Shown here piece after piece: positions 561 through 61,464 of a stretch of 64,000 nt of DNA (its first letter is position 1; the number at the start of each line of letters is the position of its first letter). Source of the stretch: Pomacea canaliculata (lineage: Eukaryota; Mollusca; Gastropoda; Architaenioglossa; Ampullariidae); NCBI RefSeq assembly GCF_003073045.1, contig NC_037590.1, positions 34,666,327 through 34,730,326 on the forward strand, written 5' to 3'. The notes under the pieces are model-generated. The model ran no database searches. It was not told the DNA's origin and was given only the letters and a program-made list of their open reading frames with translations. The position numbers and the translations under genes are program-made.

Positions 561-2106
561 CACAGGAAAAGCCATACTTCTTCAGTTCTTGCTCTACCTG
601 TGAGTAGTATGGCGAGAGGTCTACATTGCAGGAGGCTTGCAGACAGTACAGAAGACTCTGCGTAATGCTGAAATAAAATAAATTTCGAGTTATATTTTGT
701 CTGATTTTCTACAAGCTAGAGCACTTTGCTCAATTACGTTTCTTGAACGCTTTCAATGGTACAAAAAAAAATCATTATAGATGAAGAAAATAAATGAATA
801 ATTTTATAGCTAGTATGCACGTTTAATTCTTTTCTCAAGTACTGCTTATTTTTCAGAACGATGCAACGAATGCATAAAAAAAAGAAAATAAAGGAAAATA
901 ATAGAGCACACGTTTTCTTGTCGTGATGGGAAACCTTTAAAATACTCCATCGCACTCTCTAACCCACCCACCCTCACACACAGAGACAATTGTACAGCAT
1001 GATTATTATCAACAGATTTCTTTTATACACTGTATTCATTTCCCCATTTGGTTATAAATAGAAATGGTGAGCTGCCGAGTAATGAGGCCGTTTTAGTGTA
1101 AAGATAAAGCAGAAAATAAGTGAATATACGTAAACATATGCAGAAAAAATGCGAGTCAAAAGTTTATTGAGAACACACAGTTAAATGCTCTCTTTTTGTG
1201 CTTATATTCGTGTACTAAACCAGTTTGTAACATACGGGCAGGCTTGGGCGGCACTTTTCGCATTTGTCAAGGCAGCATAAAAACTGTCCATGCAAGAAGT
1301 TTTGCAGTCGCAGTTAACACGGTTTGTGAAGAAAGCTGCAACAACAGGTTTTAAAACTGATTTGCATTGATATTTAAAGTTATTGTCTACCCACGAAGAG
1401 TACAAAATAAAGAAAACTTTTTAGAATTGAAAATTAGAAAATTTGACTTCACACCCACAAACATACACAGACAAACACTCATGAACACTCTCAAACATAC
1501 ACTTGTACAAACTTGAACGTTACCACCGCGCGCGCGTGCGTGCGTGTGTTTGAGAGAGAGAGAGGGCGCATGAGTTTGTTTACGTTCTAAAAATTCTTTT
1601 GTGTTAAATAGTTCTAAATGTTGTGCAAAGTCTTCCTCCTCACCGAGGCAGATGTATGTACATTGGAAAGAGCGAAGAATTCTTTAGAAAGTGATATAGA
1701 CTATTTTTTTTTTATTATAAATAATTTAATGAACACTTTTTAGATATCATTCTATAGCAAGTAACAAAATGTCTAAGAAAATAAATTTCAAACTTTGCCC
1801 TATTAAAGTAGACAAATGTCTGAAATCTGTAAATAATTACAAATAAATAAATCATAATAAATATGTTAACAAAGAAATAAATCAATTAAAAAAAATACTG
1901 ATGTAAATTAGTGAGCGCATCAGTTCAATGTTTTCAGTAAGGCATTGGCAAGGTCTTTTCTTGTGTCAGTTTTGACCAAACGGGGTAACGTTTTGACTTG
2001 AATTAAGTTTTGCTGTTATGCTTGATTCTTCTACAGAAATATATCGCTTGAAACAAATAATGAAACACTTACCAGCGAAAAGGCAAAGTGTCAACAAGTA
2101 CTTCAT
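561..2106 (-). CDS. Six-cysteine secreted-protein family member, 3' end beyond window (partial)
   Basis: Minus-strand gene rebuilt from splice sites: exon 1 2106-2073 (34 nt, donor GTAAG), exon A 1335-1236 (100 nt, acceptor TTGCAG, donor GTATG), exon B 667-561 (107 nt, acceptor TTTCAG, donor GTAAG). Phases are 1, 2, 1 and the joined frame stays open for 80 codons. The protein starts MKYLLTLCLFAAFFTN, a clear signal peptide. Family cysteines are at 22, 26, 44, 53, 58 and 80 (x3, x17, x8, x4, x21), with an extra Cys20 giving NCDCKTSC. The closest pattern is the 20-21 kb gene, which has identical cysteine positions. The last exon with linker and hydrophobic tail is not visible in 1-560 and probably lies left of the window. 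Function is unknown; a secreted, possibly GPI-anchored product is inferred. Confidence 0.85.
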
Positions 2107-2227
2107 GATTAACAAACCACTTGGAAAGAGTTTGGAGCGTTGTAGCAAAAGCGATTTTTAGTTGAAACCTAGGGAATGCCTAAAACTGTTCTGAGAATGA
2201 CACCTCGACCTATCTGACTTTTTTCAT

Positions 2228-2237
2228 CTATATATAG
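2228..2237 (-). promoter_or_regulatory. Likely TATA box of the 561-2106 gene
   Basis: CTATATATAG lies about 120 bp upstream of the minus-strand ATG at 2106. Similar TATA-like motifs sit at comparable distances upstream of several family members. Position and motif only. Confidence 0.45.
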
Positions 2238-2299
2238 AGCACTTACACGAAGACAGCTTGGAAGGTGAAAACGATTGGTTCTCATACTTTTGCAGTTGT

Positions 2300-5340: not shown

Positions 5341-5344
5341 GACG

Positions 5345-5935
5345 GTTATTCCAATACAAACTAATGTCTACTGGTAGATATCTGTATTTGAAAACGATTT
5401 ACATTAAACCAAATGTATTTAAAACTGTTCATCACTTCGATCATGAAGATCTGTGCTTTGCCGTTGCCATTGACCATAACTTTGCTCTTTTCAGTGCTGG
5501 TCTCCATACCATATGCCTTTAAACTGTCTGTCAGTCTGTTGGTGAGGTCTTGCAGTTCTTTGTTAGTACCTGCTAACAAATCTGTGTCGTCTGCAGAATG
5601 TAGGTTGCAGATCGGCCTTGCGCCAATGGGAATGGAAGTATGATGGTCGTAGAGAGCTTCGAGCAGAATGTTCTACAAGAAGATATTAAACAGCACCGTA
5701 GATAGGGGACATCCTTGACGCAACCCTACTGTAGTTCGAATGTAAGCTCCTATTTACTTATTCAAAAGTACTTGTTGAGATATTATTAAGCGTTCTGTGA
5801 GTTGAATAAGACCTTCGATTTAGCATGACTTTGCTTGGGTGGCTGATCAGGTTTGTGGTTCTGTAGTTCTGGCACTGTTTGCTTTTTCCGTTTTTAGGGA
5901 ATGGTATGACTATTTTCTTGAAGTTTTAATCTTTT
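5345..5935 (-). pseudogene. LINE reverse-transcriptase fragment
   Basis: Reading the minus strand from about 5935 down, several frames encode typical non-LTR reverse-transcriptase stretches: a QCQNYRTTNLISHPSK-like segment, then VGLRQGCPLSTVLFN (fingers/palm), then SADDTDLLAGTNKELQDL, which corresponds to the catalytic F/YADD box. The aromatic residue before ADD is Ser here. The last part (5579-5361) continues as an open frame of 72 codons ending in unrelated sequence. Stops and frameshifts between blocks show a decayed fragment. Assignment to non-LTR retrotransposons rests on these motifs; the clade is not determined. Confidence 0.8.
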
Positions 5936-10391: not shown

Positions 10392-10491
10392 NNNNNNNNN
10401 NNNNNNNNNNNNNNNNNNNNNNNNNNNNNNNNNNNNNNNNNNNNNNNNNNNNNNNNNNNNNNNNNNNNNNNNNNNNNNNNNNNNNNNNNNN
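10392..10491. other. Assembly gap (100 N)
   Basis: Exactly 100 consecutive N, the usual placeholder for a gap of unknown size. Adjacency across it should not be trusted. Confidence 0.99.
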
Positions 10492-16603: not shown

Positions 16604-17770
16604 GGCTACTATAGCGTATGTGGGATGCCTTACGTCATGTGGAGAAGATACGACATCGTATTTAAAACAGCTAAAGGAAGCTTTGGACGCCTTGGGATTT
16701 ACCTGTGGTAAATTAATTTTATGACTAGCAAAACACACAAAAAACCCCCCAAAAACCAACCAACCAACCGAACCAAAAAAAACCCCCCACAAAATAAAAC
16801 TACCAACCAAACAAACAAAAAATCAAAATAAAACAAAACAGAAAAAAAAAAACCAAACAAAAGTTTGACTTCATTGCTTACGCTGCAAAAGAAGTAAACA
16901 ATTAAACAAACAACAAAATGTATGAGAAGAGAGAAGAAGAAAGAAAAAAATGTATATAAAAGAAGAAAACTTAGAGACTGACAACCCACACAAGGACATT
17001 AAGTGTTTTAAGGAAATTACACAACATGGTTCGTTGTTGTTGTTTAACGCCGTGTCAGACCAAGAGCCATAACATGGCAAAGACACAAGACGAAATTTAT
17101 CTTTGGTATTGTAGGAAAATGTTGACAACAAAGTGACAATGTTGTTTGTTTGATTGGCTGGCTTACTAATTTCAACTCAGCTGTCGTCGAAGGATATAAG
17201 AGAAAATGCAGCTAAAGGGGATTTGTCTTTTACTAACTAGGATACCTGAAGGGTCCAATTTTTTTGGATCATGTGAATTTATGACCGTCGACATAGGTTA
17301 ATCATATGTTGATAGGTTAGCATGTACACGTGTGCTTTCATGTGACCTGTATTAGTCTGTGTTATTATGAGGTAGACATGCTGTAAACACACAAGAACAC
17401 ACACAAGCACGCAACAAACTACAAAGACAACAGGCAGACTGTAAAGTGTACGATATTCTGCTACAGACTAGTGATGCTTACTTGAACTTTTCAATGATTT
17501 GCTCGAGACATTTACTAACTGCGCCCTCGCTTGGCATCAGAAGAAGCACACAACTCTGCGACAATACACTTGGTGTAGTTTGCAATTTTGGAATGATGTC
17601 TTTAAAACTCATAAAGATGAATGAAAATCGTGCTTGATTTACTTTCAGATCTCCCTAAACCAGATACTGGTTCCGGTTCCGGTTCAGTCTCAGGTTCAAG
17701 TCTCCCATGCGGTCTTCTTATTGTCCTTGATGCACTGCTTCTTGCTGCTTACAAAATCTTCGACTTTTAA
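16604..17770 (+). CDS. Six-cysteine family member, 5' exons not found (partial)
   Basis: Two exons are clear. Exon B is 16604-16707 (104 nt, acceptor TTCTGCAG, donor GTAAAT). It opens in phase 2, encodes ATIAYVGCLTSCGEDTTSYL and onward, and has Cys4-6 spaced x3 and x21. The last exon is 17649-17770 (122 nt, acceptor TTTCAG). It starts in phase 1 and encodes DLPKPDTGSGSGSVSGSS followed by CGLLIVLDALLLAAY and a stop, that is, a Ser/Gly linker and hydrophobic tail typical of a GPI-attachment signal. Phases match the family. No exon 1 or exon A was found between 14.4 and 16.6 kb, where an interspersed repeat sits, so the gene may be 5'-truncated or its exons may lie farther upstream. Confidence 0.75.
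17027..17105 (-). repeat. SINE 3'-end fragment
   Basis: On the minus strand the sequence reads CCATGTTATGGCTCTTGGTC then TGACACGGCGTTAAACAAC with caa repeats. This matches the conserved tail type seen at 63.2 kb and common in molluscan SINEs. It lies inside the intron of the 16.6-17.8 kb gene. Confidence 0.55.
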
Positions 17771-19930: not shown

Positions 19931-21298
19931 TTACGGTGAGCTGGTACCAGGGATTGTGAGATCTGAAAGGGAAACAAACTATTTAGCGAGAGAGAAATAA
20001 TATAGTCTTGAGTTTTTCTGTAATGTGTTTTTATGTTAATTGAAGCCATTAAAACACATTATTTTTGGTTTTTAAAATATACACTCTCTTGCACTCAGTG
20101 TATTTATTAATCTATAAGAAAAAAAGAGTATATGACTCTAGAAACTCACGGCAAGTAACACCAGTGCGTGTCATTGTTTCCTGAAAGGCGGGCAGGTAGG
20201 GGGTCACATCCAGTTTACAAGTTGTCTCAAGACAAGCTAAGTAGGTCTCTGCGAGTCTGCAACACCATTGTATTGTGAGCTGCATTTCACACTTGAGCAT
20301 CCCTAAAGTCCTGATCGCACTGACGGATTTATTTGGAGATTTTTTAAAAATATTAATCAAGCAGCAAACTTGAAATAATTGGAAGTAGACAATGACAATG
20401 ATGACAATGACAATGAGGACAATGACAATGACAATGACAATGATCAACTTTATTTGTCCCAGTGGCCAACTTGAACATGCGAAGGTGCTCTAGTTACAAG
20501 TAAAAGTAAAAATAAAAAGATTAAAGTTAAAAATAAAAGAAGACAAACATACACGAAGGAGAATTTATTAAAGGGATGAATAATCAGAAGCATAATGTAA
20601 GAGTGTCAGATCCAAGCCAACTTCTCCAACTTACACACACGCCTGTGCTGGAGTAGTTAAGGTCGCCATGTCCTGCGTGAATTTACTCGTGCAGTCCTCG
20701 GGACAGTCACCATGGACGTAGTTGACGAAGAAAACTGGGATGAAATAGAAGTTTTGAATTACAGGCCAGGGAAGACTGCTTAATGTTGTTAAGCACTTTA
20801 TCGTTCATCGAGTCAGCTGATAGTCAACTATTTATTATCTGTACTTATGTTAAGCATGTAACGTGTGTTCTAAATGTACGTTGTTAGGTTGGTCAAAAGA
20901 TTTGGAATCGACAGTGTTTCTTAACACCTGGCTGCATAAGATTCATGTCCTTAATACAATCTCTGGCAGACGACAGTTGTGAAAAAGGATTTTCAAGCAG
21001 TTTAGTTATAGGCTCTGACATATAATTGTCACTTTTGTGCATCTAATACAAACACAGACGTAGCAGAAGGTGTGCAGAGGTTATCTATCCATTCATTTGC
21101 TTAACAGTGCAATCAAGACAGGTAAATTAAAGAAAAGAAACAATAATAAAAAAAACAAGAGAGAGCTCTGTAAATTCAAATGTTTTATTTCTGCAATATC
21201 CGTCTGCACGCTGATGTGCTTTATATTCTGTTTGCTGAAAGATAGCGATTGTCATGAGACTTACCGGAGAAGATACAAAGCACAAGCGAATACTTCAT
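19931..21298 (-). CDS. Six-cysteine family member with decayed C-terminal exon
   Basis: Minus-strand exons: exon 1 21298-21265 (34 nt, MKYSLVLCIFS, donor GTAAG), exon A 20734-20635 (100 nt, acceptor CCCAG, donor GTAAG), exon B 20256-20150 (107 nt, acceptor TTGCAG, donor GTGAG). Phases 1, 2, 1 keep the frame open for 80 codons. Cysteines are at 22, 26, 44, 53, 58 and 80, identical to the left-edge gene. The likely last exon begins at 19962 after TTTCAG. In the expected frame it reads HLTIPGTSSP and stops at 19931, while another frame continues into a hydrophobic LSYFLLAVSLEHLAVAV tail ending at 19863. A small frameshift may have destroyed the anchor signal, or the protein may now be soluble. 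Exons 1, A and B are secure; the tail is not. Confidence 0.78.
20389..20443 (+). repeat. (CAATGA)n microsatellite
   Basis: Near-perfect caatga/caatgaggа-type hexamer repeats lie in the intron between exons A and B of the 19.9-21.3 kb gene. Confidence 0.85.
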
Positions 21299-23343: not shown

Positions 23344-25831
23344 TTACAATAAAAAGGCAATCATCAGGACAGCGATGACTTGCAGGACACTGCAGGATAC
23401 TGTCGATGAGTTGGAGAGGGCGTCAGCTTCAGGTTCTGGCTCGGCATCGCTGGAACCGCCTAGAAGAAAATCAGTACAAGAAACCAGAATCAGCATACCT
23501 CTGGTTCTCAAGTCCTCTACTTAAATACGTCTTTACATTTAAAAGAAGAGAATAATAAAAAGAAAAAGCAACAAAAAAACAAAAAAAAAAAACCAGCCCG
23601 CTATGCGTCTCACTTGTACATTCACTGGACCAGTGAAGACACAAGCCGAAACGGAAAGCGCATTAAAAGAAGAGTGAAGTAATTCACTTTCTTTAAGTTT
23701 GATTTTGCTAATAACATACAAATCTATTTAAAGCAAAGCCCACTAATGCATACAATTCTCAAGGATGACATTTCATGACGATGACTTGACACGACTTAAG
23801 TGAATTTGATGTTTCCAAAAAATATTTTGTGCTTCTTTTGCCTGTTTCGTGAATGTGATCAACACAATTCTTATGCTAGTTCAAGGAACGCCATATACAA
23901 CTGTGGTTGCTGTATAAGTAAAGTAAATTAGTTACATGTAAATAAGACAGCTCAAAGTGTCACCGACTTACCACAGGTAGTGAAGCCCTGCTGAGTCAGG
24001 CCAAGGTTTATATGGGAAACATATTGTGACGAGTCTGTGTGGCAACTGGACTCGAGGCAGCTGATGTAGCTCTGTGCGATCCTGTTACACAATGTTTACT
24101 TTGAGTAGAACAAGGTGTAAGTAACTAATGGAACTCTGTGCTGCCTAGAAACACAACGTTTATTGTGAGTGGAGCTAGGTTTATGCAGTTTATGTAATTA
24201 TGCTGTATGCAACTCACTGACCTTCAGGTTTTGTAGCTGAGATTTTACCAATAACAATATCTTATAATCAAAGTAATGATACATATAAAATTTGATAATG
24301 ATAGTAATAAGAATAATACAATAAGTGTATATTTATATAACACTCTGCTGCAATTTTTTGTTTGCTCTGAATCCATTAATATGACATGGCAAGCATATCG
24401 GCGTTGTACGTTGACCATGTGGACGAGAAGAAAAACTTATTTCTAATAATTGAGTATAAATGTTCTCAACATACGCGCATGCCTTGAACTGACTGCTTGC
24501 AGCTACGATGTGCGACTGGAAAGCACTCTCACACGTAGCGATGCATATTTGGGACACTGGACTGCATTACTGCCGTAGATTGCCCTGGACAAATCTGAAA
24601 AAATATCCAGGTGAACCATTGATGTGTTAAACCCACTATTGTCTTATGGTACGAGCGGCACACTCACATATGCAAGCACTCACACAGATACATAGCTAAC
24701 TAGATATACATATAGTGCACTGTATAATTTAATAGACGGTTCAAAAGATACATATATGCATACATTCGGTTTAGTTATGAGGATACCCGAGAGTTTCATG
24801 CCTATCGCCTCATTTGCTCCAGGGGGCAGCTCTACCACATATTTGAGTTTCTTTGTGGTTGACAGATTCTCTTCATATGTGTACTAGGTATGTGTCCATA
24901 TTGTGAAATAACAAGTACTCCGACAGTTTTTCTTTTTGTATTTTTTGCCAAGAATGTCCAGAACTTTTTTTTAAAGAATTTTCTTCGCCTTCTCTTCCAC
25001 TTGGTGCTTCTGTATGGTACCAACGATCTCCTGGGGACTTGTTTGACAGTGTACCGGACTGGACATCGTCCTCACCTTAGCATTTCCTTATGGTAGGCAT
25101 GGAATGACCAGTGAATATAATACATAATAACATAACAACTGGACATACAACCAATTAATTAAATTACCAATTAATAAATGCTACACACCATTAATTTCGT
25201 CCAGTCTCACTATAAACTCACAAAATACAATTTTGGACAGGGTCATACATCGACTTGATGACCAGTTAGTGCAGTCAGTCGCTGTTTCTCAAGATTTCTC
25301 GTCTGAATGATGTTGTTACTAATCGACCTTATACCTAGATGCTCGTTACAGGCGACAGTGTTTAGATCCCCACACATTCTCTGCACAATATTGACAAACT
25401 TGTATTCAAAGTTCATTTTGTACCCGAAACCACTTTCATCATGCATCCATCACTACTTTTCTCATCGGTCACATTCTGATGACATGAAACTGCACTGCTC
25501 GACCCTGTCGTCTGTATCTCACTCTGCTATCAGTGATATAGAACCCTGTATTAATGGTGTCAAAGATAAGAAAAAGAAAACCAAACTGAAAATTAAAGAC
25601 GATAAAATGTAACCTTTCTTGTGCTCACACAAAGTCGACCATCGCTTATTAGTCCGAGTGAATACCTAAAGATGGGGGAGCCCTTATCATCTTTCATATG
25701 TCATGTCACTGCCAACATATCTTTCTCAAGCGCTGAGAACAATATGGTCCTTCATGACCAAGATAATGCGTTATATAAATCGCTCGTTTTTGTTATTGTT
25801 GTTGTTGTTATTGTTGTTGTTGTTATTGTTA

Positions 25832-25867
<36 letters not shown>

Positions 25868-28142
25868 CTACAAGCCTGATCAATAAACACATGCAAAGAT
25901 GCTGACTTACCACATGTAACCCTGCGACTGGATAGCAATTGTTGCACAGACGGGAGATACGGGGTTACGTCGCCTAAATGACACGACGTTTTTAGACAGT
26001 TGAAGTACGTTGGCACGTATCTGCAACAATAGGTTTGCTGTCAGCGCGATTTGTTTTCTAAGTATATGTCTCACAGGTGTTGACTTTGATGCAGTGTTTG
26101 CTTGAATGATTGTCTGAGTAAGAGAGTGAGTGAATGATTGAATGAGAGAGTGAATGAGTGAATATGGCGCTTGATGTTTGTATTAGTCATTGTTCATTGT
26201 GTCTCCAGGTGTATTTTCATATGCGCTCATTCACTCACTGCTTCTGTATCAGCATCACTTGAGAACTTACGCGCAAGCTGTGGCCTGGCTGCTCCCTCCA
26301 CTGAGGATCGACTGGAAGTTGTTCAAGCAGGTCGACATACAGATATTTGTTTGCGAGCCGACATAGTCCGTGACACCTGTAAGACAGTCAGAGAATAAGC
26401 TTACACGAAGCAAGTCATCGCAAGAAAACATTTGTGTACACCTCTCACTCATTTAGCGTATTTTAGCTTTACATAGGCTTGGGATCCAACTTTGCTTTCT
26501 TGTTCTTATGTTATGTTTGTATATTTGGTTGAATCTTATCTCCCCTACACAGGCTTTTGTTTCTGAAACCTCTCTGCGTGACTAGTCCCATGGTGCAGTG
26601 TCACGCTTGGCTGAGTAGGTGTGGGTACACAGAAATCAAGTGACCACAGACACAGTTATGAATCTCGTGTCACCTGTAGTTTTGTACAAGCTTTTGTGTT
26701 GGCGCTGACTAACGAAGGACTATGTAGCTAGGCCCTTAGTGTTGTAGGGGTCAACTATCTCTGGTATTCCATGAAGCACGGCATAGACGAGTAATAATTA
26801 TTTTTGCTAAATTTTGAGAGTAGTTGTGTCTGAATAATGGGATTCCTCAGCCTTCCAAGCATATAGGAAAAGTTTGAGGATTCTACATCTACCAAGGTAC
26901 AATGTACCTGTTTGAACATCAGTTTGTTTTATCTGCACACCTTATTCATTACGGATCCCAGTAATTTGACTGCAAGTTGAAGTATTCCCGAAAAGAATGG
27001 GAGGTCAAATTTTTAAAGTAGTCCTTGGTGATTTGTGTTTTCGTTTTAAATAGTATGTCGGTTATGTGATAGCACTGGGTAGTCTTAGGTGTACACATTA
27101 ATAATACGGTGACTAATCCACCCGGGGTGAAGTTACAACTGAACACTGCGCGGTTATGTCAGTAGTGCGTACCGAAAACTTTAAAGCATTTTCTGAACAT
27201 TAAGTTAACATTAAGTGGACATACTTTAGAGAGAGAAAATAAAACAAATAAAGATATCTCAGTCCACCATTCAGTCCTACGATTAACCCATTTTCTCAGT
27301 TAGCCCAGGCAAGAATCTGGGTACTAATCAAGGAGATTATGAATTAAGGTCAAGCGAGGCTATCAGAGAGATATCAATAAACAAATAAAAGGACCATAAA
27401 TAAATAGAATGTTAAAGCTCAGTGGGAAATGGGGTATAGGTAATATTCACGAGATAAAGCAGCTGGCTATGGATATTTTAATGAAAGTCAATAGCGATGT
27501 TTTCCTCTACCTGTACATAATAATTTAGAGTTGTTATTATTTTTAAAAAAGAATAGGTGTAACCATAAGTCCATGTGTAACGATGTGTAAGCTCTGGTGT
27601 GGATTCTGGGTGAAACTTGCGCAAATCTATCCTCTTATTCTTTAATCACCCTAAATGGGTTTTAAATATAATAAAAATTACTTGAAAAATTATATTATTA
27701 AGTATTTGTAATGTCTTTATCTCTCTCATAGCTTTTTTCTCACTTCTAGTATATTTCTAATATTTATCGAAAAAGGTACTTTCTTATACACAATTACAAT
27801 TGTTTAACCACTTTTTTGTTAGATATAAAATTCTCTGATATAAAAATTGACATTACTTGCTATATTATATTTTAATTAATTTTGATTTTTAATGTGCTAG
27901 TCAACTTATTATTTTCGTAAGGACTAAAAATGACAGACATTTATGGTTTTGTTTTTATGTGAGCGAGGAGCATCTGTCGAGTAATTGTGATCTCATTTTG
28001 TCATTTCAGCCTCTCCTGGTGTCGTGTCATTAAATTATTACTTAATTATTAAATTAAATTCCGCAGTTTTATCAAAGAAATCTAAAACAGAACACATACC
28101 TAAGACAAAGACGAGAAGGAGTACGCTTTTCTTGGCGTCCAT
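23344..28142 (-). pseudogene. Two-module six-cysteine gene with a 1-nt deletion in exon A2
   Basis: Minus-strand exons: 1 28142-28100 (43 nt), A1 26376-26271 (106), B1 26020-25911 (110), A2 24594-24475 (120), B2 24081-23972 (110), last 23459-23344 (116). All have AG acceptors and GT donors with phases 1, 2, 1, 2, 1. The total is 605 nt, one short of a whole number of codons. Compared with the inverted plus-strand copy at 51-56 kb, A2 lacks one base upstream of its first cysteine, so reading shifts and soon stops; the downstream exons remain intact. The signal peptide is MDAKKSVLLLVFVLG. The last exon encodes an Asp/Glu/Pro linker and SVLQVIAVLMIAFLL, a good GPI-type tail. Either a young pseudogene or an assembly error; without the deletion the product would be about 201 residues. 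Confidence 0.88.
25793..25866 (+). repeat. GTT/ATT trinucleotide microsatellite
   Basis: A gttattgtt series grades into (att)n inside the B1-A2 intron of the two-module minus-strand gene. Confidence 0.9.
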
Positions 28143-35069: not shown

Positions 35070-37040
35070 ATGAAGTACATGCTGATATTCCTCCTTTTAG
35101 GTAATGTATCGAAGGATACCTTTCAGAAATAATATTTTAGCTTATGCATGATAGATAGTTCATGTGTATTGGTTAAACATTTTAGAGCAAATATTTATAC
35201 CGCCCTAGGAAAAATATACTGGTATGTATATGTTTTTAAATACTTATGTGCTCAGGGATTTCTCTGAAACTTGGAATATGGTTTTAACGGATTTAACGTG
35301 AATGCAGAGTTCAGCAACAGAGGACACCATGTTTTTGATTTTCCTTTCAAATTAGTAAGGGTTAGTAGTTTCAAGATCCTCAGGCTATGTCCTCGAATAT
35401 AACGAAACAGTGTGTCACACGCCTTTGTAGTATTTTTCTTTTACGATTAAACACTTTTCTTACGAACACATAACGAAAACTATTTGTCCTGTAATTAAAA
35501 CGTTTCGTGAATTCATTGCAGCTTTCTTCGTGAACTCCACAAAAGGAATTGGGAGCTGCTTAAGTTGTACTTTTAACCCAGCAGAAAAAGACGTGGCTCG
35601 CATGTGCGCGTAAGTAAAACCTTAATTTGACAAGATACATACATTGGTTTGAATTTTGTTTTCTGAGAGATTAATATCTACATCATCTTATTAAAGTAGC
35701 TAGCCATGTGGTAGCTTTGAGGGTAGGGACTCGCGGTTTAAAGTGAGTGATGTGAACAGTGTATGTAACGTATGTTATCGTAGGTAGTAAGAGGTACACC
35801 ACAGCTGTCACCCACGTGCCAGAAAAATGTGGTAACAGCTAGTGTAACACAGGAAACTAGATTGGCCAGTATTTTTACTCCTACCACACTTTCACTGATG
35901 TATGTATACATCTTAACAACCAATCACTCTATGAAAGCGGTCACAAAGTCAATGGAAAGTTTATTCTTGTCACACAATTATACAGACTTTGTCTTTCTAC
36001 CTTATTTTAATTTTCCTTTCCCAGACTCTCTCCAGATATGAACCAATGGTGGTGTCGAACGTATTAAGGAAAAACGTTTAGGTTTCAATGCTATGTGCGA
36101 CTAAACCAAAGTTAACTTCTGGTAACAAAAAGAAGAGAAGCATGGCAACGCCTACCATTTTAGCTTAATTTATCTTTTACTTGGGTGAATGTATTGCTAA
36201 TTGATAACTTCTGTTTGAGATTTGATTTGTAAATCTTTGTGTTATGTGTATACTATTATTTTTAGCAGAAACATAAATCAAATCTGTGTATCCGAAGAAG
36301 TAATCTATCCACAACCCTCACCAAAGCAAAGAACATACACACATATACAGGCACGCGCTCGCACACACGTGAACAAGCATTATGGAAATCAGTGTGTTTT
36401 ACTTACCTGACATTTTGTGTATAAAGAGAGCACAAATGGGGTTGTTGCAGATCTCTTCGGGCTTATCTGCAATGCCTTCGGGACTGTGGAGCAAATACTG
36501 GAGATAGTTCGGAAACAGAGTTGGACAAACTGTTGAATGAACGTTGTGGTAGGTCATTTCGTTCACCTAACGGTTGAAATCCATACTTAAAACTTAAAAT
36601 TACAGTTTTAAAACTCAAAATTGGTCGGAGTAAAATTACTCCTACTCTAACCCTATCCATTAACCACAGTTACATAAATTGTACTTTTATGGCGGGATTG
36701 CACGGGCAAAAAAACTATGCTGATGGGATTGCCCCTGTGGATTAATTAATTTGTGTTGTATTGTTTTTAGTTCTACTAGAAAACACATCTATTCTAACAG
36801 AAGTTAAGAAACCTTCCTCGTGACTCCTTTTGTCATGTACAAGAAATATACAAGTGAAAGTGGGATGAGGTATTTATCCTGTTTAATTTAGAAAACAAAA
36901 ATGAACTAATCTTTATATGTGGCTGTTAGAGCTAATTGTGTAATTGTAATTCACTTTCAGGTACAGCTGGTCTGTCTGCCAGTCTTCTGACTGTCCTCGG
37001 TGCCTTGCTGCTCACTGTTTATAGAAATATCGGCCTGTGA
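35070..37040 (+). CDS. Single-module six-cysteine, GPI-like protein (complete, 98 aa)
   Basis: Four exons: 35070-35100 (31 nt), 35522-35609 (88), 36451-36548 (98) and 36961-37040 (80). All have AG acceptors and GT donors (GTAATG, GTAAGT, GTAGGT). Phases are 1, 2, 1 and the 297-nt sum gives 98 residues plus TGA. Residues 1-19 (MKYMLIFLLLAFFVNSTKG) form a signal peptide. Cysteines are at 23, 26, 39, 48, 52 and 72 (x2, x12, x8, x3, x19), the most compact module in the cluster. The C-terminus is GTAGLSASLLTVLGALLLTV, then YRNIGL, fitting a GPI-attachment signal that ends with a short polar tail. No known family recognised. Intact splice sites and frame argue that it is functional. A cell-surface or shed protein is inferred. 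Confidence 0.88.
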
Positions 37041-40299: not shown

Positions 40300-40333
40300 A
40301 TGAAGTACTTTCTGATCGTCCTGCTTCTTTGTG
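40300..40333 (+). pseudogene. Lone signal-peptide exon of the six-cysteine family
   Basis: The 34-nt open exon encodes MKYFLIVLLLC and ends in phase 1 at a GTGAGT donor. Its length matches exon 1 of the 2.1 kb and 21.3 kb genes. A TATA-like motif lies upstream. No exon A, B or tail was found before the next member at 43660; the interval carries transposon fragments (40853-41115, 41819-41911, 42392-43262). Most likely the remains of a member whose other exons were lost. Confidence 0.6.
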
Positions 40334-43659: not shown

Positions 43660-45689
43660 ATGAAGTTTGCGATGATATTACTTCTTTCAGATGATACCTA
43701 AAAAGGCAAATTTTGTGTAATAGGTGGCTCGTGAATGTTAATTAAAGGATATATATATATAACTGAGTAAATATTTATACCATTTTAGGTAGGGTCTACT
43801 GGTTTATTTGACGTGACCATGAATTTTATTTATCATTCACGAAACTTGGAGTGAAAGTGGATGAACTTTTTTCACGGAAATATCAGCATCGCCATCAAGT
43901 TTCTGATTCTTGCAAAGAAGCTATAAAAGTTTGTCCACGTCAGAATCTTTAGAAGGTGTGCCTGAAGATAGTTTCCGGAAATGCCAAACAATCTTGTATT
44001 TACAAACTTTGATCCTTTTTCCTGGGATCTGGATTTCGGATTTACTATTAGCACACCTTATACTTTCGCCCTGTGAATTTCGAAGTGCTATTTTTTACCC
44101 CTGACACGGTCAGTTGGGTATAGTTGTATGTAAGTAAAGATCTTCATGATGTGTATTAGACCAATTGAGGCACTATAACACACAACCATCTAAGGATCTT
44201 TTGTTAAAGTTAAGTTAAAGATGTAACACCTACTTTTACACTTTGCAGTTAGAATGCAAGTCTTTAAGATTGACTCTGGATTAAGGTCTATGATTGGCTA
44301 CTGAGAACTGACCATAAAGAAAAGTATAGAGACAAAAATCGTTTGTTTTATTCCGAGAAAGATACTTGTATGCAAATCTTTATATCACAATTACATTTTT
44401 TTTTCAGCAGTCGAATGTCATGTTAATCTTACGAGAAAAAATTGAAAGGTTAATTCTTTCTGTAAACTTTCTAAGTTCATTTTAAATCCACGCATTGTAT
44501 ACAAATGTAGCTCACATTAAGCACTTTCTGAACTGATGCCTCACAGTGTTGGAACAATTTTAGATAGATTGAAATTTTTAAAAGTTTGCCGAAAATTGTA
44601 AAAATCAGGAAACTTTCTAGTCTTAAGTTAGACTTATTTGACAATATACTTTTACCTTTATTTTAAAATTAAATATTATCATAAAACTCAGCCAAGGTGC
44701 ATCCTCCTAGGTACCTAAAAACTGTCTGTGAATCAATTGCAGTGTCTTCCATGACTCTAATAAATGGAGACGACAAGAATGACTGCATGAGGATGTGCAA
44801 TGATGTTGCTGAATCAGGCATACAAAAAAGTTTCTCTCAATCCATAGTTTGCAAGTAAGTTTACTATGTGCAATTTTTATCCTCTTCAACCTCTTAACTA
44901 ATTATTGAAGATGAATAAGAATTTGACAGAAGGTGTAAGAAGAGAATAAGGCGAGTAGGGCAGAACTAAAAGACTCGAATGTCTTTTTTACTCAGCAATC
45001 ACATTTAAATTTAGTCTTTTTTATATCTTATGTACTATAAATTTTTAATATATGCAATAGAAAAGGGTGCTTCCTTTTTTAAAAGTCTCTGGTAACTCCA
45101 TCATATCTAAACTGCATTATATCTTGCTTATGTATAATTTCAATACAAACAGTTTTCCACAGAGACTAATGCATTTTTGTACGGTTTTTTTAACAACTTT
45201 TTTTCAGATATGCTCAGAATAATTTAGACTGCTTTAAAAATACCTGTGGACTAGAGGTCGCATCGCATGTACGAGAGGTAGAGGAGATGTTGAGGAGTAA
45301 AGGCTACTCTTGTGGTAAGCAGTTAACGCGATCAAGATAAACTGATTACACAAAAGCTATTCATGCAAAAAGAACAGGAAAGAAAGCACAGTTCGTAATA
45401 AGAAAGTTTAAAGCATCATGGCGAAGCAAGACTCAATTTTATGTTACAGGGAGTGCTATAGTTGTGGACAGGAATCGTAACTATATTCTGCCTCTCTTAA
45501 GATTGTGGAGATATTAGAAGGAAAGTGGCAAATAATATTTACATATTTTTGTGAAAGAATGACAAAATGAGTTCGGGGTGATAACGTTTCAATTTTCTTG
45601 CAGACCTTTCCGGCTCTAGTGCTCTGTCTGGCAGTCTCCTCATCGTCCTTCTTGCCCTGCTGATTACTACATACAGAGCCTTAATCTAA
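43660..45689 (+). pseudogene. Single-module six-cysteine gene with lost exon-1 splice donor
   Basis: Exons by comparison with the 58.5 kb copy: 43660-43690 (31 nt, MKFAMILLLS), 44743-44854 (112), 45208-45314 (107), 45604-45689 (86). They sum to 336 nt, exactly 112 codons, with no stop. Cysteines follow x3, x17, x8, x4, x21, and the tail SGSLLIVLLALLITT with TYRALI is GPI-like. However, the exon 1 donor is AT (cag|ATGATACC) where the sister has GT (cag|GTGAGACC); read-through adds only DDT before a stop. The TATA motif is also altered (tatacaag against tataaatg), and about 50 bases of 5' leader are missing. Probably a very young pseudogene, unless another donor or start is used. Confidence 0.85.
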
Positions 45690-51173: not shown

Positions 51174-54100
51174 ATGGATGTCAGGAATAATGTGCTCTTT
51201 CTCATCCTTGTCTTGGGTAAGTGTCCAGTTTTGGATTCTTTTAATCAAACACTATACGGCATTTTTATAAATAAATAATCACATGAAGTGAATTAAGATG
51301 AAAGACGAATGGACAATCACACGTTAGACAACCCTGACGCTCATTAAAAAAACTTCTAGTCCTCACAAAGAGTACAGTTGCTAGCATTATCCAAATAAAT
51401 GTAATATAGTCAAAAGTGATAATTCAAAAGGGACACTAGAGAATTTTATATCAGATGAGATTAAAGATTGTAACTGTGCATACGAAAGTACCTTACTTAA
51501 GTATCCAACAGCTGAGAAGAATCGATTAAGTGTCAGAAAGGATTGGGGGAGAGATAAAAGGAAGGATACAGAAAGTAATAGATTATTAGTATTATAATTA
51601 TTTTTTAATGTAATTTTTTATTAGATTTTAATACCCCCGCAAAGTGGAGAAAGTATAAGTGTTTGTATTTATACAGATCACGGTCTACCTTCAGGTTTAG
51701 TATCTCTGCATATCTACTTTATTTAATAAATAATTAGAATGGTGCAATATTTAATACACGTAGAGGGTTTACAAGTGATCGTTTTTCACTATAAAAGATC
51801 CATAGCCATTTCTCTATAGTTCAGGTCATTGCTTATAGCCTTATTTATTTCTCCTCAAATATCTTCACTTGTCTATAATTCATACCCTACTTCTAACCCA
51901 GACCCAGTTTATTGCCAGCGAGCTGAGAAAATCGGTCGTGGGTTAGTCGTAGGACTGAATCATCGACGTTGATATTTTATTTCTCTCTTTCTCTTTCTCT
52001 CTCTAATTTAACATTATGCGCAGGAAATGCTCGAAAGTCGTTGGTTTTACTTCGCAGTTAATTGCAGACTGTAACTCCAACCCGGGTGAATTAGTCATCG
52101 TATTTGTTACCATGTACTCCTAAGACTAAATGGCGATATCGCATACCTGACATAACAACACAATACACCAGTGGCTGCTTTAAAAATCTGACCTCCTAGT
52201 GGCCTCAAGTGTATCTTTCACTACTAAGACATCGTAATGTAAGGCAGAGGAAGGTGGCCAGGTAAAGTCATAGAACTGATGTTCCGGAAGTTACCTTGTA
52301 TCTTGATAGATGTAAGATCATGAGTCAAATTGTTAAGATACAGCAGATACTGAGGCTGAAGGATCATGTCGTTAAGACACTCCCACTCTCAAAAACTGAA
52401 AATAAATAGTTTCGTTGGCTTCTACCTCATGATTAAAATATTACTGTAGAGGTAATTAACTTATTTAAATACGAAGGGTGTCGGTGCATACTCTCTTCTT
52501 TCAGTCAGTGACACCCTCGCTGCTTGTACGCAGCTACAGGTGACACACGATTCATTTTGTCTCTTGATCGCTGTGTATCCACACCTACTCTGCCAAGCGT
52601 GACATTAAGCCGCGTGACCAGTCTCAACCAGTGGTTTCAGAAACAAAAACCTGCTTAGGGGAGGTAATACTTAATACAGACAACTCCTCACAGACATGGC
52701 ATTACGAGGGTAAAGAGTCCATGTACTATAGTGGGATCTTAAGCACATATAAAGCATAATCATCCGTAGGCGTTTACCGAAAGAAAAGTTATCAAAAGAT
52801 CAGATTTTATTAACTGGCGATTGTATTAGCAAATCCTTGTAGTGAGATTTATGTACCCCCCAGCAATCAGAATTTTTAAATGTGGTAAAATTTTCTTTTT
52901 TTATACACGTCGAGTAATAATAATGATATTAAGTATTAGTTTATAGATACCTTACCCCCCAAGGGACATACATTCATGAGGCTTCAGGAACACACACCTG
53001 TCTCGGGACATTCTCTGTATGACTGTCTTACAGGTGTGCCGGGCTGTGTCACGGACTATGTTGGCTCAGAGACAAATATCTGTATGTCGACTTGCCTGAA
53101 CAATTTTCAGTCGATGCTCCAGGGAGTGAGCGACCAAGCCACAGCTTGCGCGTAAGTTTGGAAGTAATTTCCGTGCAGTTTTAGAAGAAGAAGTTATTGT
53201 TTTTTTATTTTTTTAGTTTGCTTTGGTTGTCATTTTTTGCGCTATTTGTTCGTTATTTTTTCGTGTATTTTCTATTTATTAGTCACCCTAATGCTTCTCT
53301 TTGTATTTTCTCTGTTGTGATAAATGACAAGAAATCTGATGAGCTTATTCCATTAATTACATTTACAAGTCGCAAATCAATAGGCTTAGTGAAAGAGATA
53401 TTCACACATGAAAGTATGCAAAAAAAAATGAACATCTAAGAAAACAAAAGTCTGGGTTAGCGCAAGCATCATTATGGACACTTACTCGCTTAAACAATCA
53501 AGCAAGCAACCAATGCATCAAAATTCATACCTGTGTAACATTTACTTTAGTAAACAACATCGCTCTAACTGTAAACATACCGTTGCAGATACGTGCCAAC
53601 GTATGTCAACTGTCTCAAATCATCGTGCAATTTGGGTGACTTAAGCCCTTATCTCTCTTCTTTGCAAGAAGTGTTGTCCAGTAGTGGGTTTACCTGTGGT
53701 AAGTCAACACTTCGTGTTAAGTGAGCGATTTTGTTTGTAAACTATTTCTGTGTATGAGTGCACGAATGTGAGTATGTATTTTTTCAGCCACCTGACTACT
53801 TATCCAGGTGGCTATTTATGTATCTACATCTGTGTGTGTGTGTAAGTGTGCCGTTCACAGATCATAGCGATGTTAACACAGCAACTGTTAACTATAAGAA
53901 ACACTTCACCTGGTATTTTCAGATTTGTCCAGGTCAATCTACAGCAGTGACCAAGTCCAAGTGTCCCCAATGTGCATCGCTACATGTGAAAGTGCTTTCC
54001 AGTCGCACATCGTAGCTGCAAGCAGTCAGTCCATGGCATGCGCGTATGTTATAAAGCAATTAGAAATAGGTTTTTCTATTCATTCACATCGTCATTTACA

Positions 54101-55850
54101 TGTAACATGTCACCAGCGGACAACTGAGTCATTCAATCATGAACATAATGATATATTTGTTCAACAAACATCTTAGAATTACTTCATTACTAAAGCTTTA
54201 AATCGTCTTTATTATTTGTTGACAAGTTTTGTGTGTAATGTTACAACACCTATATGTTTGTCATTGTATATTTATGGCTGAGCGATCAAAATATAGTTTT
54301 GAGAGAGCAGGAAACGAAGGTAGACATTTTCATTTGTCCTCCTCCTCCTCCTCCTCCTCCCATTCCTCCTCATCATCATCATTAAAATCCGTATTCAATT
54401 TTAGAGCTGACAAGAAGCAGTTTTAATTGACAACATCTAAGTTACAACAACTCCAAACCAAAAAAATGTCCAAAGGTCGGCCCAGAGCGCGTTGAGAAAC
54501 CTATGCACAAGCAAATATGTACATCTATAAGAGTTTATTATTTGTATTTTAAACTGGAATACCAACTGTGCTACCTCATCTATTTTAATATGTATTTACT
54601 GTCACCCTCTTCATAGGACGGTCCGTGGCACAAACATTAGCGCCTGCCACCAAAACAGTGAGAGTTAGATGTCGTGGATGTTGTTTCGTGAGCTCACAAA
54701 ATGAAATAAACTGATTTCACCCTTCTCCAAACAAAACAAACATTGTGTTACAGCATCGCACAGAGCTACATTAGCTGCCTTGAAACCAGCTGCAACGCAG
54801 ACTCGTCGCAGTTTGTATCTCATATGAACCTCGGCCTGACACAACAGGGCTATACTCCATGTGGTAAGTCGCTGACACTTTTGACCTGTCTTATTTACAT
54901 GTAACTGATTTGTTTTTACAGCAGACATCAGATTAATCTGCGGTTTTGTTGAATAAGAATTTTGTTTAATTTAATACAGGCACAATGTGAACATAAAATT
55001 TTATGGACACGTCAAACTCATTTGACTCGTGCTACGTCCATTAAAATCATCATCATATCATCGTCGCAGACAATAATTCTGAATTACTCTCCCTCGACTT
55101 TTATATGTAAATCACGCTAATGTTGATCATTATGGAAGTATTGCTTGTACCAAATGACTTATCAGCAAGTTCTCTAACCCTTCAATGAAATCGGCAAGAC
55201 GTATTCTACTCTGGATTGTTTATCTACGAATTGCGGACGAATCCTCGACTTCTTCTAGAGCAGTTTACTGAGATAAATATTTGGTCATGCCCTAGTTATA
55301 TTTATGTCGTTAACGAACGAAAAATGCATCAATGGTGTATCTCTCAGAATGAAGTGAAGTTAATTTATTTTTGTTAGCACTGTGATGCCATGCTTTAGAA
55401 TTCAATGCATTAGTGCGTGCTTTTCTTTCAACAGATATGTAAACTAGTGAACAAAATTAAACTTAAAGAAAGTGAATTACTTCCCCCTTCTTTATATCCG
55501 CTTTCTATTTATTCGCATCTTACTGGCCCAGTGAGTGTACAAGCGAGAAACAGTGTGGGTTGTTTATTTATATATTCTTTCTTTTTTCTTTCTTTCTTTT
55601 CATGTGCTTTCTCACAAACATAAAGTATTCTGGTAGAAGAATCATGAATGAGAGTTTTCTTTGGATCTGATTTTAATGTCCGTCTCAAACTGTTTCTTTT
55701 GTAGATGGTTACAGTGATGTCGCCGATGCCGAACCTGAAGCTGAACCGCCTTCAAGCTCCTCGGCAGTGTCCTGCAGTGTCCTGCAAGTCCTGGCGATGG
55801 CTACTTTGACAACAAAGATGTCTCTCTGGCAGTTCTCAACTGAAACGTGA
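51174..55850 (+). CDS. Two-module six-cysteine secreted protein (complete, 215 aa)
   Basis: Six exons: 51174-51216 (43 nt), A1 53034-53151 (118), B1 53589-53698 (110), A2 53923-54043 (121), B2 54754-54863 (110), last 55705-55850 (146). All have AG acceptors and GT donors. Phases are 1, 2, 1, 2, 1, and 648 nt give 215 residues plus TGA. The signal peptide is MDVRNNVLFLILVLG. Module 1 cysteines are 31, 35, 53, 62, 67 and 90; module 2 cysteines are 108, 112, 130, 139, 144 and 167. Both use exactly x3, x17, x8, x4, x22. There is an extra Cys19. The last exon encodes an acidic Pro/Ser linker (VADAEPEAEPPSSSS), then SCSVLQVLAMATLTTKMSLW and QFSTET. This is less hydrophobic than the GPI-like tail of its inverted copy, so this protein may be secreted rather than anchored. 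Module duplication is clear; function is unknown. Confidence 0.9.
54340..54382 (+). repeat. (CTC)n microsatellite
   Basis: ctcctc repeats followed by (atc)n inside the A2-B2 intron of the two-module gene. Confidence 0.85.
55440..55560 (+). repeat. Conserved intronic block of the inverted pair
   Basis: The stretch beginning aaacttaaagaaagtgaatt and containing actggcccagtgagtgtaca matches the complement of 23590-23720, in the same intron (B2 to last exon) of the inverted copy. It may simply be recent shared ancestry. Confidence 0.75.
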
Positions 55851-57834: not shown

Positions 57835-58392
57835 TAGGCGAAAAGCAGTCCGTGGTTGTTTCGCATCACCATGAAAGCAAGTGGTTCAACCGGCCATCTT
57901 TGAAGATCTCCATTTACAAAGCACACAAGAAAACATTTTAACCCCCACCTTACAGGTAAACATAAGAGGATTCCTCGTATATGCTATATACACAAACTAC
58001 TGTTACAACATACTTCATAACAATAAATATATAAATGCGCATATGGTTAAGGTGTATGGTCAGAAGCACAGCTTAGGTTCTAGAAGTAATGTTATTCTTG
58101 AAATAATTCTAACAATCTTAGCATAAAAACAGTGAAACAGAACATGAACACCAGGACACATCGATAAATCAAGAATGACAGTGCAAAGTCAGATAAGCCA
58201 ACCATACCCTCTTGTAAATGTCTGGAGCTGTTAAAAGTATTTGTTCTATAAAACGAAGATCAAGGATATGAAATTCCTTTACAACATTTCGTAGTTAGGC
58301 TGTGACAAGAGATCTCGATGGCCACTGCATTCGTGTTTCGGTGATAACAAGTCTGATTGACAGCTCACAACTAAAAGTGAGTAGGACACAGG

Positions 58393-58399
58393 TATAAAT
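58393..58399 (+). promoter_or_regulatory. Likely TATA box of the 58510-61464 gene
   Basis: TATAAAT lies about 115 bp upstream of the ATG. The sister copy has the altered sequence tatacaa at the corresponding place. Confidence 0.55.
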
Positions 58400-58509
58400 G
58401 TAAACCACGGAGGTTAAGCTGTAGTATCAGTACATATCACGATACAAGTTTTGTTCCCAGTTGTAAAATTTGTCCAGTTTTCGATAACACTATCTTTCAA
58501 TTTTTCACC

Positions 58510-61464
58510 ATGAAGTTTATGATGATATTCCTTCTTTCAGGTGAGACCTATAAAGATATAATTTTGTGTAATAGATAGCTCGTGAAAGTTAATTAAAGGC
58601 TATATATATATATAAAACTAAGTTAATATTTATACTGTTTTAGGTAGGATCTTCTGGTTTTTTTGACGTGACCATGAATTTTATTTATCTTTCACGAAAC
58701 TTGGAGTGAAAGTGAATGTGTTTTTTCCCACGGCAATATCAGCATCATCATCAAGTTTCTGATTTTTGCAAAGAAGCTATAAAAGTTTGTTCGTGTCCAA
58801 ATCTTTAGATAGTGTGCCTGAAGACAGATTCCGGAAATGTCAAACAATCTTGTATTCACAAATTTAGTGAACAGAGAAAAATTGGCAGGAGACTGACCAG
58901 TATCCCGAAGCACAGTTTGTGTTAGCTTTGTGAAAGAAAATGGCGGTGTTATGTTTATCATTGTTCTTGATTCCTCTAAAGGACATATTATTGCCTATGT
59001 CTGAGCAGGACTTTCTAATATTCTCCCAATACATCTCTCAAAGTTCAAAAATGTGGCTGGTAAATATTCTCTTGATAGAGTTCTTCGAGTTGTCCTGCTG
59101 CTGTATTCCAGTTGTCAGTTTTAATCCTTTTTCCTGGGATCTGGATTTCGGATTTACTATTAGCACACCTGATACTTTCGCCCTGTGAATATCGGAGCGC
59201 TATTTTTTTTTACCCCTGGCACGGTCAGTTGGGTATAGTTGTATGTAAGTAAAGATCTTCATGATGTGTATTAGACGAACTGAGGCACTATAACACTCAA
59301 CCATTTAAAGATCTTTTGGACCACATCCGAAATTGTTCAAATAGTGGATTCGCTATGATGAAGAACAGGAAGGCATCTTTCTCTGGTTGGTGCATTCATT
59401 TTGCAACTTTTCACATGCATACTGTGTAACCAGTAAGATGTTTTGTAAGGGGTTACCTGATTCTCCCTTTTCTTTACCTGCAAAATAACAGCCAATAACC
59501 CTTAGCTTTAGTTTGTGTAATGTGCAGAAAACTACTCTCTCTATAGCTGTCCACTAGACAAACATTAATTTGCAAGAGATTTAGCATATTTATATCTTTT
59601 TTATTGTTATTGGACGGGGAGTTTTCGAAACCCAATCCGAATTAAACAATTAAACAGGTTACCTGCTCGTTTGGAAGAGACTCTCAATACCAGTAAGAAA
59701 CAGTGGAACACATCTATTTCCTTCAGAACACAACACCTTTAAACATCATGAAGAAATATCCTTCTCAGAGGAGTTTTACAGGGGACTATGGAAGATCTGG
59801 CTGTGTTTACACGAGGGTAAAGGAAGAAATCAAAGCAAGAACACAAAGCCTTGTTTACATTAAAATTACGGTGGCATCACATGTTGCACTGAGAAGCACA
59901 CGGTAACAAAGAAGGCATGTGATTAGTAGATGACTGTAGATACAATTAAGCGAAAGGTTAAAGATGTAACACCTACTTGTACAGTTTGTAGTTAGAATGC
60001 AAGACTGACTCTGGATTAAGGTCTAAGGTTGGCTACTGAGAACTGACCATTGAGAAAAGTTTAGAGAGACAGAAACCATTTGTTTTGTTCCGAGAAAGAT
60101 ATTTGTATGTAAATCTTTTATATGACAATTACAATTTTCTTTTCAGCCGTGGAACTTCTGTAGAATGTCTTGTTAATCTTACGAGAAAAAATTAAGAGGT
60201 TAATTTTTTCTGTGAACTTTCTAAGTTCATTTTAAAACATCGCATTGTACACAAATGTAGCTCACATTAAGTACGTTCTGAACTGATGCTCCACATCAGT
60301 GTAACAATTTGTGATAGATTTTAAAAATTTTTAAAAAAATTTCCAAAAATTGTAAAAATCAAGAAACTTTCTAGTCTTAAGTTATATTTATTCGACAATC
60401 GACCTTTACCTTTATTTTAGAATTAAATATCATAAAACTCAACCAAGGTGCATCCCTCATAGGTACCAAATAAAAACTGTGAATCAATTGCAGCGTCTTT
60501 CGTGACTCTAATAAATGGAAACAATATGCAGGACTGCATAAATATGTGCGGTAATGCTGAACTAGGCACGCGAGACAGTTTCTCTCAATCCCGAGCTTGC
60601 AGGTAAGGTTACCTTGTCTCCTTTTTATCTTCTTCAACCTCTTAACTAATGATTAAAGATGAATAAGAATTTGGCAGAAAGCGTAAGAAGAGAATAAGGT
60701 GGGTAGGGCAGAACTAAAAGACACGGATGTGTTTTTTCTCCTCAGCCATCACATTTGCATTTAGTCGTTTTTTTTATCTTCAGTAGAATAAGTTTTCAAT
60801 AAATGCAATAGAAAAGGGCGTTTCTTTGTTTTTTAAAGTCTCTGGAAACTCAATGATTTCTAAAAATACATTATATCTTGTTTATATATATAACTTCAAT
60901 ATAAACAGCCTTCCACAGAGACTAATGCACTTTTCTGTTTCTACTGTCTTTGACGTTGAATTTGTTTTTTTTTCAGACAATCGCAGACTATTTTAGACTG
61001 CTTTAGGGATACGTGTGGAATAGATGTCGGACCACGTATACCAGAGACAGAGGAGAAGCTGAGGCGTCAAGGCATCTCTTGTGGTAAGCAGTTAACGCGA
61101 TCAAGATAAACTCTGATTACACAAAAGCTTATCATGCAAAAAGAACTTGGGAAAAAAAGCACAGTGCGTAATAAGAAACTATAAAGCATCATGGCGAAGC
61201 AAGACTCTTCGTTTTATGTTACTGGGAGTGCTACAGTTCTGGACAGGAATCGTAACTATAGTATGCCTCTCTTAAGGTTGTGGAAATATTAGAAGGAAAG
61301 TGGCAAGTAATACTGACATATTTTTGTGAAAGAAGGACAAAATGAATTCGGGTTGATAACATTTCAATTTTCTTGCAGACCTTTCCGGCTCTAGTGCTCT
61401 CTCTGGCAGTCTCCTCGTCGTCCTTGTTTCCCTGCTGATTACTGCATACCGAGCCTTAGTCTAA
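58510..61464 (+). CDS. Single-module six-cysteine, GPI-like protein (complete, 110 aa)
   Basis: Four exons: 58510-58540 (31 nt, donor GTGAGA), 60494-60602 (109, acceptor TTGCAG, donor GTAAGG), 60977-61083 (107, acceptor TTTCAG, donor GTAAGC), 61379-61464 (86, acceptor TTGCAG). Phases are 1, 2, 1, and 333 nt give 110 residues plus TAA. The signal peptide is MKFMMIFLLSASFVTLING, with cleavage likely after Gly19. Cysteines are at 25, 29, 46, 55, 60 and 82 (x3, x16, x8, x4, x21). Residues 83-110 (DLSGSSALSGSLLVVLVSLL onward to TAYRALV) form a small-residue site plus hydrophobic stretch, a convincing GPI signal. Intron 1 is about 2 kb and contains two segments missing from the sister copy. Function is unknown; a cell-surface role is inferred. 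Confidence 0.9.

Follow-up and report, generated by a model that had tools for sequence, protein, structure and literature searches.

What kind of protein is encoded by a group of small six-cysteine genes on C1 of the snail Pomacea canaliculata, and what makes the copies diverge? The question is raised by a stretch of 64 kb, C1:34,666,327-34,730,326 (hereafter the window, with loci named g2 to g58), in which a first-pass annotation had noticed a cluster of genes for secreted or glycosylphosphatidylinositol (GPI)-anchored proteins. The window, the 264 kb around it and the genome (440,159,624 bases in 24 contigs) were analyzed; the assembly is described as 440 Mb in 14 linkage groups, with 440,071,717 given in a table (PMC6129957). 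Judging from sequence, we consider it about an even chance that the genes form a GPI-anchored family related to RGM_N, the N-terminal domain of RGM proteins, which has expanded locally in the snail and is under diversifying selection.

Gene architecture

The window holds eight loci of one family (Table 1). The gene layout consists of a signal exon, exon A with cysteines C1 to C3, exon B with C4 to C6, and a GPI-type tail exon, with intron phases 1-2-1, as the annotation had claimed for at least seven loci on both strands. A grammar of this layout (C-x2,3-C-x12,17-C-NN-GT, then AG-N-x7-C-x3,4-C-x19,22-C-N-GT, 150-1500 bases apart), derived from the same window exons that it then finds, fits nine A-B pairs in the window versus none in 60 dinucleotide shuffles, in which the A half alone averaged 1.55 matches and the B half 0. 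Exon DNA profiles yielded nine A, ten B, seven tail and seven signal exons plus a weaker solitary signal exon. Since the profiles were trained on exons already found, those match by construction, and only the B and tail exons of g16 and the solitary signal exon are new. Neither a signal exon nor an A exon of g16 was found with the profiles across the window.

The spacing of eight residues between C3 and C4, split by the A/B intron, had been described as constant, and it is so in all 18 spliced models as well as in both modules of g51, module 1 of g28 and a copy on C2. The remaining gaps across the family are x3 for C1-C2 (x2 in g35), x12-19 for C2-C3, x3-4 for C4-C5 and x18-22 for C5-C6, the last being x21 in 9 of 19 modules. 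The module spans about 60 residues with its six cysteines and is flanked by a phase-1 intron on each side, so that an A+B pair could be duplicated or skipped without loss of frame. In g51 two A-B modules stand in tandem, with intron phases 1-2-1-2-1, and g28, an inverted relative of g51, also holds two A-B pairs. An uninterrupted frame runs from ATG to stop in the models at 35.1, 51.2 and 58.5 kb, whose introns have GT-AG borders, in agreement with the open joined frames first reported there.

By eye, the tail exon directly follows the module and no long region separates the signal from the module. Small residues and a short hydrophobic C-terminal end are seen, again by eye, in the tails of 17 of the 18 models. 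The tail of g21 has no hydrophobic end, so that this protein would be a secreted form, and in g51 the character is weak. The initial description of a secreted or GPI-type family is supported.

A signal exon, a GPI-type tail and clustering would also be expected of Ly6/uPAR three-finger proteins. However, no three-finger Pfam match was obtained in the 20 modules scanned, and the cysteine spacing of Ly6 proteins does not fit x8 and x18-22. The Ly6/uPAR explanation was rejected on the spacing and for want of a Pfam match in those 20 modules and is exceedingly improbable.

Three copies within the window are broken. In g28 the second A exon has lost its frame at the start, ahead of its cysteines; by eye, the frame would survive through an AG located 38 bases further into that exon, and it would also survive if the second module were skipped, so this gene may or may not be expressed. 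The signal exon of g44, a tandem copy of g58, is followed by bases other than GT, and g16 has no signal or A exon. The solitary signal exon, which has a GT donor, lies upstream of g44, whose first donor is altered, and is a candidate alternative first exon for that gene.

Table 1. Exon coordinates of family loci in the window (position 1 is its first base) and names of the loci on either side
Locus	Span	Strand	Signal	Exon A	Exon B	Tail	State
g2	561..2106	-	2073-2106	1236-1335	561-667	-1165..-1056, left of window	open
g16 (remnant)	16604..17770	+			16604-16707	17649-17770, GPI-type	broken or incomplete
g21	19931..21298	-	21265-21298	20635-20734	20150-20256	19931-19962, short	open
g28	23344..28142	-	28100-28142	A1 26271-26376; A2 24475-24594	B1 25911-26020; B2 23972-24081	23344-23459	broken or incomplete
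g35	35070..37040	+	35070-35100	35522-35609	36451-36548	36961-37040, GPI-type	open
Solitary signal exon	40300..40333	+	40300-40333				weaker profile match
g44	43660..45689	+	43660-43690	44743-44854	45208-45314	45604-45689	broken or incomplete
g51	51174..55850	+	51174-51216	A1 53034-53151; A2 53923-54043	B1 53589-53698; B2 54754-54863	55705-55850	open
g58	58510..61464	+	58510-58540	60494-60602	60977-61083	61379-61464, GPI-type	open
m98	left of window	-					open
m91	left of window	-					open
m80	left of window	-					open
m74	left of window	-					open
m64	left of window	-					open
m41	left of window	-					broken or incomplete
m33	left of window	-					open
m27	left of window	-					open
m15	left of window	-					broken or incomplete
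m8	left of window	-					open
g65	right of window	+					open
g94	right of window	+					broken or incomplete
g99	right of window	+					open
g110	right of window	+					open

Extent of the cluster

The cluster had been placed at 561..61464 of the window. It is real, and these limits are too narrow: the tail of g2 lies outside the window, and the array reaches about 100 kb to the left and 48 kb to the right. The 264 kb were scanned with the exon DNA profiles and the loci were then modeled (g94 was read without a model), which added fourteen loci to the eight of the window. The resulting count of 22 omits lone fragments, for instance a tail at about -31.4 kb and, at about -5.8 kb, part of a B exon. 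All exons are open in 16 of the 22 loci, and six are broken or incomplete (Table 1).

Protein searches with g51, m91, g35, g65 and m8 placed 80 of the 89 matches listed in the array and nine outside it. They indicated one additional gene at about C1:34.562-34.563 Mb and located a real four-exon copy of the family on another chromosome, at C2:3.472-3.474 Mb; the other outside matches are on C4, C5, C7, C8, C9 and C10 (E 0.003-8). Most of the family, though not all of it, therefore lies in a single array of roughly 0.2 Mb. With its tandem and inverted duplicates in a cluster, and with broken copies beside divergent open ones, it is a birth-and-death multigene family, the kind that the first-pass annotation had suspected from clustering, fast change and many broken copies.

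Several left-hand loci have paired signal exons about 90 bases apart (-97193..-97056, -63265..-63128 and -40420..-40285), which are possible alternative first exons.

The six broken or incomplete loci might suggest decaying duplicates or repeat-derived exons that yield no protein product, but 16 loci are open, and TATAWW occurs at -180..-60 upstream of the starts of 11 of 20 genes, versus 25% at random places. In addition, amino-acid change exceeds silent change (see below), an excess that decay alone would not produce. On the open loci and this excess, decay was rejected as very improbable.

Selection on the module

Is the divergence of the module larger than neutral change would produce? The noncoding sequence of g44 and g58 is 90.0% identical (2386/2650), and identity is 79/86 in the tail exon, 27/31 in the signal exon, 83/109 in exon A and 81/107 in exon B, the combined A+B being more diverged than the noncoding sequence (p=1e-8); the exon limits behind these identities were off by one or two bases. 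For the module of this pair, nonsynonymous divergence (dN) is 0.32 and synonymous divergence (dS) is 0.19, with dN above dS in 945 of 1000 codon bootstraps. Six of the eleven pairs compared have dN above dS (g58-g99, g44-g58, g44-g99, m8-m33, m64-m41 and g65-g110).

Five recent paralogue pairs (g58-g99, g44-g99, m8-m33, m64-m41 and g65-g110) were pooled and gave dN 0.219, dS 0.117 and intron divergence (K) 0.134. In the pooled tests dN exceeds dS (p=0.003) and intron divergence (p=2e-7), and dS does not differ from the introns (p=0.53); these p-values are optimistic since the pool was selected from the eleven pairs after the values were known, and the counts were taken from rounded per-pair values. 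The pair g44-g58 was kept out as belonging to the same lineage, g44-g99 representing both pairs with g44; also kept out were m98-m64, m98-m27, m64-m27 and m91-m98, in which dN is below dS, and m33-m74, in which dS is saturated. Two of the five pooled pairs contain a broken copy (g44 or m41). Taken singly, the ratio dN/K is 1.89 for g58-g99, 2.10 for g44-g99, 1.40 for m8-m33, 1.04 for m64-m41 and 1.49 for g65-g110. With silent sites changing at the intron rate and amino-acid sites above both, diversifying selection is indicated rather than loss of constraint. On these estimates, the comparisons show that the module diversifies beyond the neutral rate in recent pairs.

Diversification is not seen throughout, however. 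By themselves m64-m41 and m8-m33 (p=0.13) are not clearly above their introns, and dN is below dS in four of the eleven pairs, one further pair being saturated. Older or different pairs, namely m98-m64, m91-m98 and module 1 of g51-g28, have no excess of dN over dS; the last, an older pair with dN 0.128 and dS 0.601, is under purifying selection.

In four of the five pooled pairs the signal and tail lag behind the module in rate of change; those of m64-m41 are unreadable because the signal exon of m41 is out of frame. A fast, cysteine-rich module behind a slow signal is also what venom-like secreted peptides would present. That explanation meets the hydrophobic tails described above and a module that stands close behind the signal (both by eye), on which it was rejected, and we give it very little probability.

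Two pairs differ in another way. Module dS is 0.55 against an intron K of 0.13 in m64-m27, and 0.93 against 0.25 in m98-m27, which suggests that these paralogues may have exchanged module exons.

Resemblance to the RGM N-terminal domain

The earlier statement that no family could be named for these proteins is not fully supported. No Pfam model passed its cut-off in the 20 modules or five full proteins scanned, and a weak resemblance to RGM_N (PF06535) appears repeatedly. RGM_N is listed for three of the 20 modules, m27 (E 0.011), m98 (0.014) and m41 (0.057), and it was reached at E<=1 by none of 54 cysteine-fixed shuffles. In a phmmer search of the PDB, RGM chains occupy ranks 1-4 of the five matches of m98 (E 0.62-1.0), and RGMA is the sole match of g35 (E 0.25). 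Of these single-module queries, g35, g110 and m27 had been picked for high scores with the RGM profile, m98 for its Pfam match, and m91 as a further member.

Comparison of profiles points the same way. Alignment of the family with RGMA and RGMB by hhalign gave E 0.0029 with cysteines 2 to 5 in register, and E 0.0007 when the snail's own RGM was added; the local score beats 300 of 300 cysteine-fixed column shuffles of the family and 300 of 300 of RGM. With a hidden Markov model of the family, 2 of 2000 shuffles scored as high as human RGMB, 1 as high as human RGMA and 4 as high as snail RGM. In the opposite direction, with a three-sequence RGM profile, no more than 11 of 1000 shuffles matched the score of the module for 11 of the 19 modules.

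The N domain of RGMB is described as three helices with three disulfides, a leucine of the linker entering the pocket of the ligand (PMC7354924). The cysteine gaps of RGMB, 4-22-8-7-21, compare with 2/3-(12 to 19)-8-(3/4)-(18 to 22) in the family: both have six cysteines and C3-x8-C4, which is invariant in the family, and x21 between C5 and C6 is common to RGMA, RGMB and the nine modules mentioned above. The residues that follow C5 are RGNL or RGDL in RGMs and QGDI in snail RGM; the modules have C5-x-x-[DEN]-hydrophobic, with [DEN] in 19 of 19 and the hydrophobic residue in 17 of 19 (by eye), a motif that was spotted post hoc, carries no chance estimate and lies one residue later in g51 and module 1 of g28. 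The RGM_N domain is known from RGMA, RGMB and hemojuvelin (PDB 4uhz, 4uhy), and its parent protein is GPI-anchored. Unlike RGM, the family is multicopy and diversifying and has no RGM_C domain.

Other observations speak against the link to RGM_N. The best RGM_N score is 16.3 bits against a curated cut-off of 24.2. DUF3502, a family we would not expect for these modules, is listed as often (m41 0.024, m64 0.1, g21 0.13), and m27 also matches Cyclin_C (0.013) and DUF4359 (0.017); since shuffled modules reach E 0.005 for random families, Pfam E-values alone prove nothing. The PDB matches of g110, m27 and m91 are unrelated proteins, a profile of all 19 modules found no PDB chain at E<=10, and the matches of a profile of eight were limited to two chains of a single unrelated protein (E 2.2). 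The hhalign probability is 10.6% with RGMA and RGMB and 25.6% with snail RGM added, 4 of 200 shuffles equal the score in global mode, and for the other eight modules between 25 and 827 of 1000 shuffles score as high against the RGM profile. The C2-C3 gap is x12-19 against x22 in RGMB and C4-C5 is x3-4 against x7, and the contact residues Arg and His of RGM are not retained in the modules (by eye).

The genome gives further points on the same side. A search with RGM_N returned seven matches, all of which were read, and does not list the cluster. The match on C13 is RGM and the only place where RGM_N and RGM_C were seen together; one at C2:17.73 Mb is 0.4 bits over the cut-off and has three internal stops, and the remaining five look like chance. 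There is no RGM_C near the cluster, RGM_C exceeding its cut-off only at C13 in the genome. In snail RGM, C1-C5 lie in one open frame without an intron between C3 and C4. Between its pieces the snail RGM gene (C13:21243450-21244150) has frame shifts, from assembly error or otherwise.

Could the resemblance then be convergent? A mollusc-restricted helical six-cysteine family, with helices and cysteine spacing like those of RGM_N in the absence of common descent, has a probability that we place somewhat below even. The sub-threshold scores, the equal showing of DUF3502, the family profile that retrieves no PDB chain and an intron layout unlike that of snail RGM all agree with it, and the periodicity of amphipathic helices alone could beat column shuffles. 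It is countered by the recurrence of RGM_N in independent Pfam, PDB and profile comparisons, which is why the link to RGM_N is favored, and by the motif after C5 common to both. The resemblance to RGM_N is thus repeated and weak.

Proposed function

According to the reading we favor, a family related to RGM_N, the small protein would begin with a signal peptide, continue with the module, of which g51 has two, and usually end in a GPI-attachment tail. The module would be a bundle with three helices and three disulfides, a remote relative of the N-terminal domain through which RGMs bind ligands of the BMP type. The proteins would sit on the cell surface, with g21 secreted, and would bind a protein ligand through the linker between helices 2 and 3 and through helix 3, their disulfide core staying fixed while the surface varies. 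Changing partners, such as a parasite, a symbiont, a gamete or diverging paralogues of a ligand, would drive the diversification. The proteins may act at immune, reproductive or host-contact surfaces, as originally suggested.

If the link to RGM_N is right, a TGF-beta-type ligand would be the likeliest partner. Binding of BMP/TGF-beta-type ligands is the likeliest specific mechanism, and one that we still rate as rather unlikely. A more detailed proposal, that the BMP-binding head of RGM was freed from its partner domain and expanded to at least 16 open, GPI-anchored, diversifying genes facing variable TGF-beta-type ligands, either the snail's own or a parasite's, has to be regarded as less likely still.

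Another pertinent question is whether ligand binding of this type was retained at all. The module may instead be a variable scaffold for display against parasites or symbionts or for gamete recognition, with TGF-beta-type binding lost. We consider this a serious possibility, if short of an even one; it fits either origin of the module, and its odds overlap those of the other readings. Module dN above intron divergence in recent pairs, a slower signal and tail where readable, clustering with broken copies, and the apparent exchange of exons in m64-m27 and m98-m27 all agree with a display scaffold, but the linker motif stays conserved.

Other features of the window

Positions 10392-10491 are a 100-N assembly gap. 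Upstream of g44, a stretch at 42391-43265 has inverted ends and looks by eye like a DNA transposon, which we take to be of the Tigger/pogo kind. An open frame on the minus strand at 5361-5672 resembles reverse transcriptase; Pfam matches to 56 window frames were limited to one RVT_1 (E 0.00038), which we assign to this frame from its letters, and one DUF3201. An element of about 370 bases is present at 15886-16258, just upstream of g16, and in inverted orientation at 21894-22262, the copies being 68% alike. In the A2-B2 intron of g51, a dispersed repeat at about 54599-54680 matches seven places on other contigs. Scans of the window for tRNA and with Rfam named nothing.

Comparison with known systems

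Further searches named no described relative. NCBIfam gave three matches for 19 modules, all at E 0.055 or more, Pfam gave two weak unrelated matches for five full proteins, and an IMG/VR scan with g51 returned 15 pattern stretches, none of them a relative. In the open-licence PMC literature we found no described match for the family and no RGM_N-like modules that are multiplied and diversifying without RGM_C. If the proposed origin is true, a fold that binds ligands in development would have been put to a new use in an RGM_N-like family that stands alone. The cluster offers a test bed for diversifying selection at the mollusc cell surface, and, Pomacea canaliculata being a noted invasive pest, diversity of surface receptors would be of interest to host-parasite biology.

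The N-terminal domain of Twisted gastrulation, as described in PMC11167000, is a small disulfide-rich three-helix bundle that also binds BMPs; it differs in having seven disulfides and in being secreted, and it did not appear in the Pfam and PDB searches of the family. A clustered birth-and-death family of surface proteins is in itself a known kind. The Guadeloupe resistance complex of Biomphalaria is also a snail gene cluster that encodes surface proteins of highly diverged amino-acid sequence, in which, however, the proteins are single-pass transmembrane, four of them with fibronectin III, and, of the two clusters, only that one has resistance mapped to it in the account given (PMC4361660). 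We liken the two by clustering and divergence, not by sequence relation.

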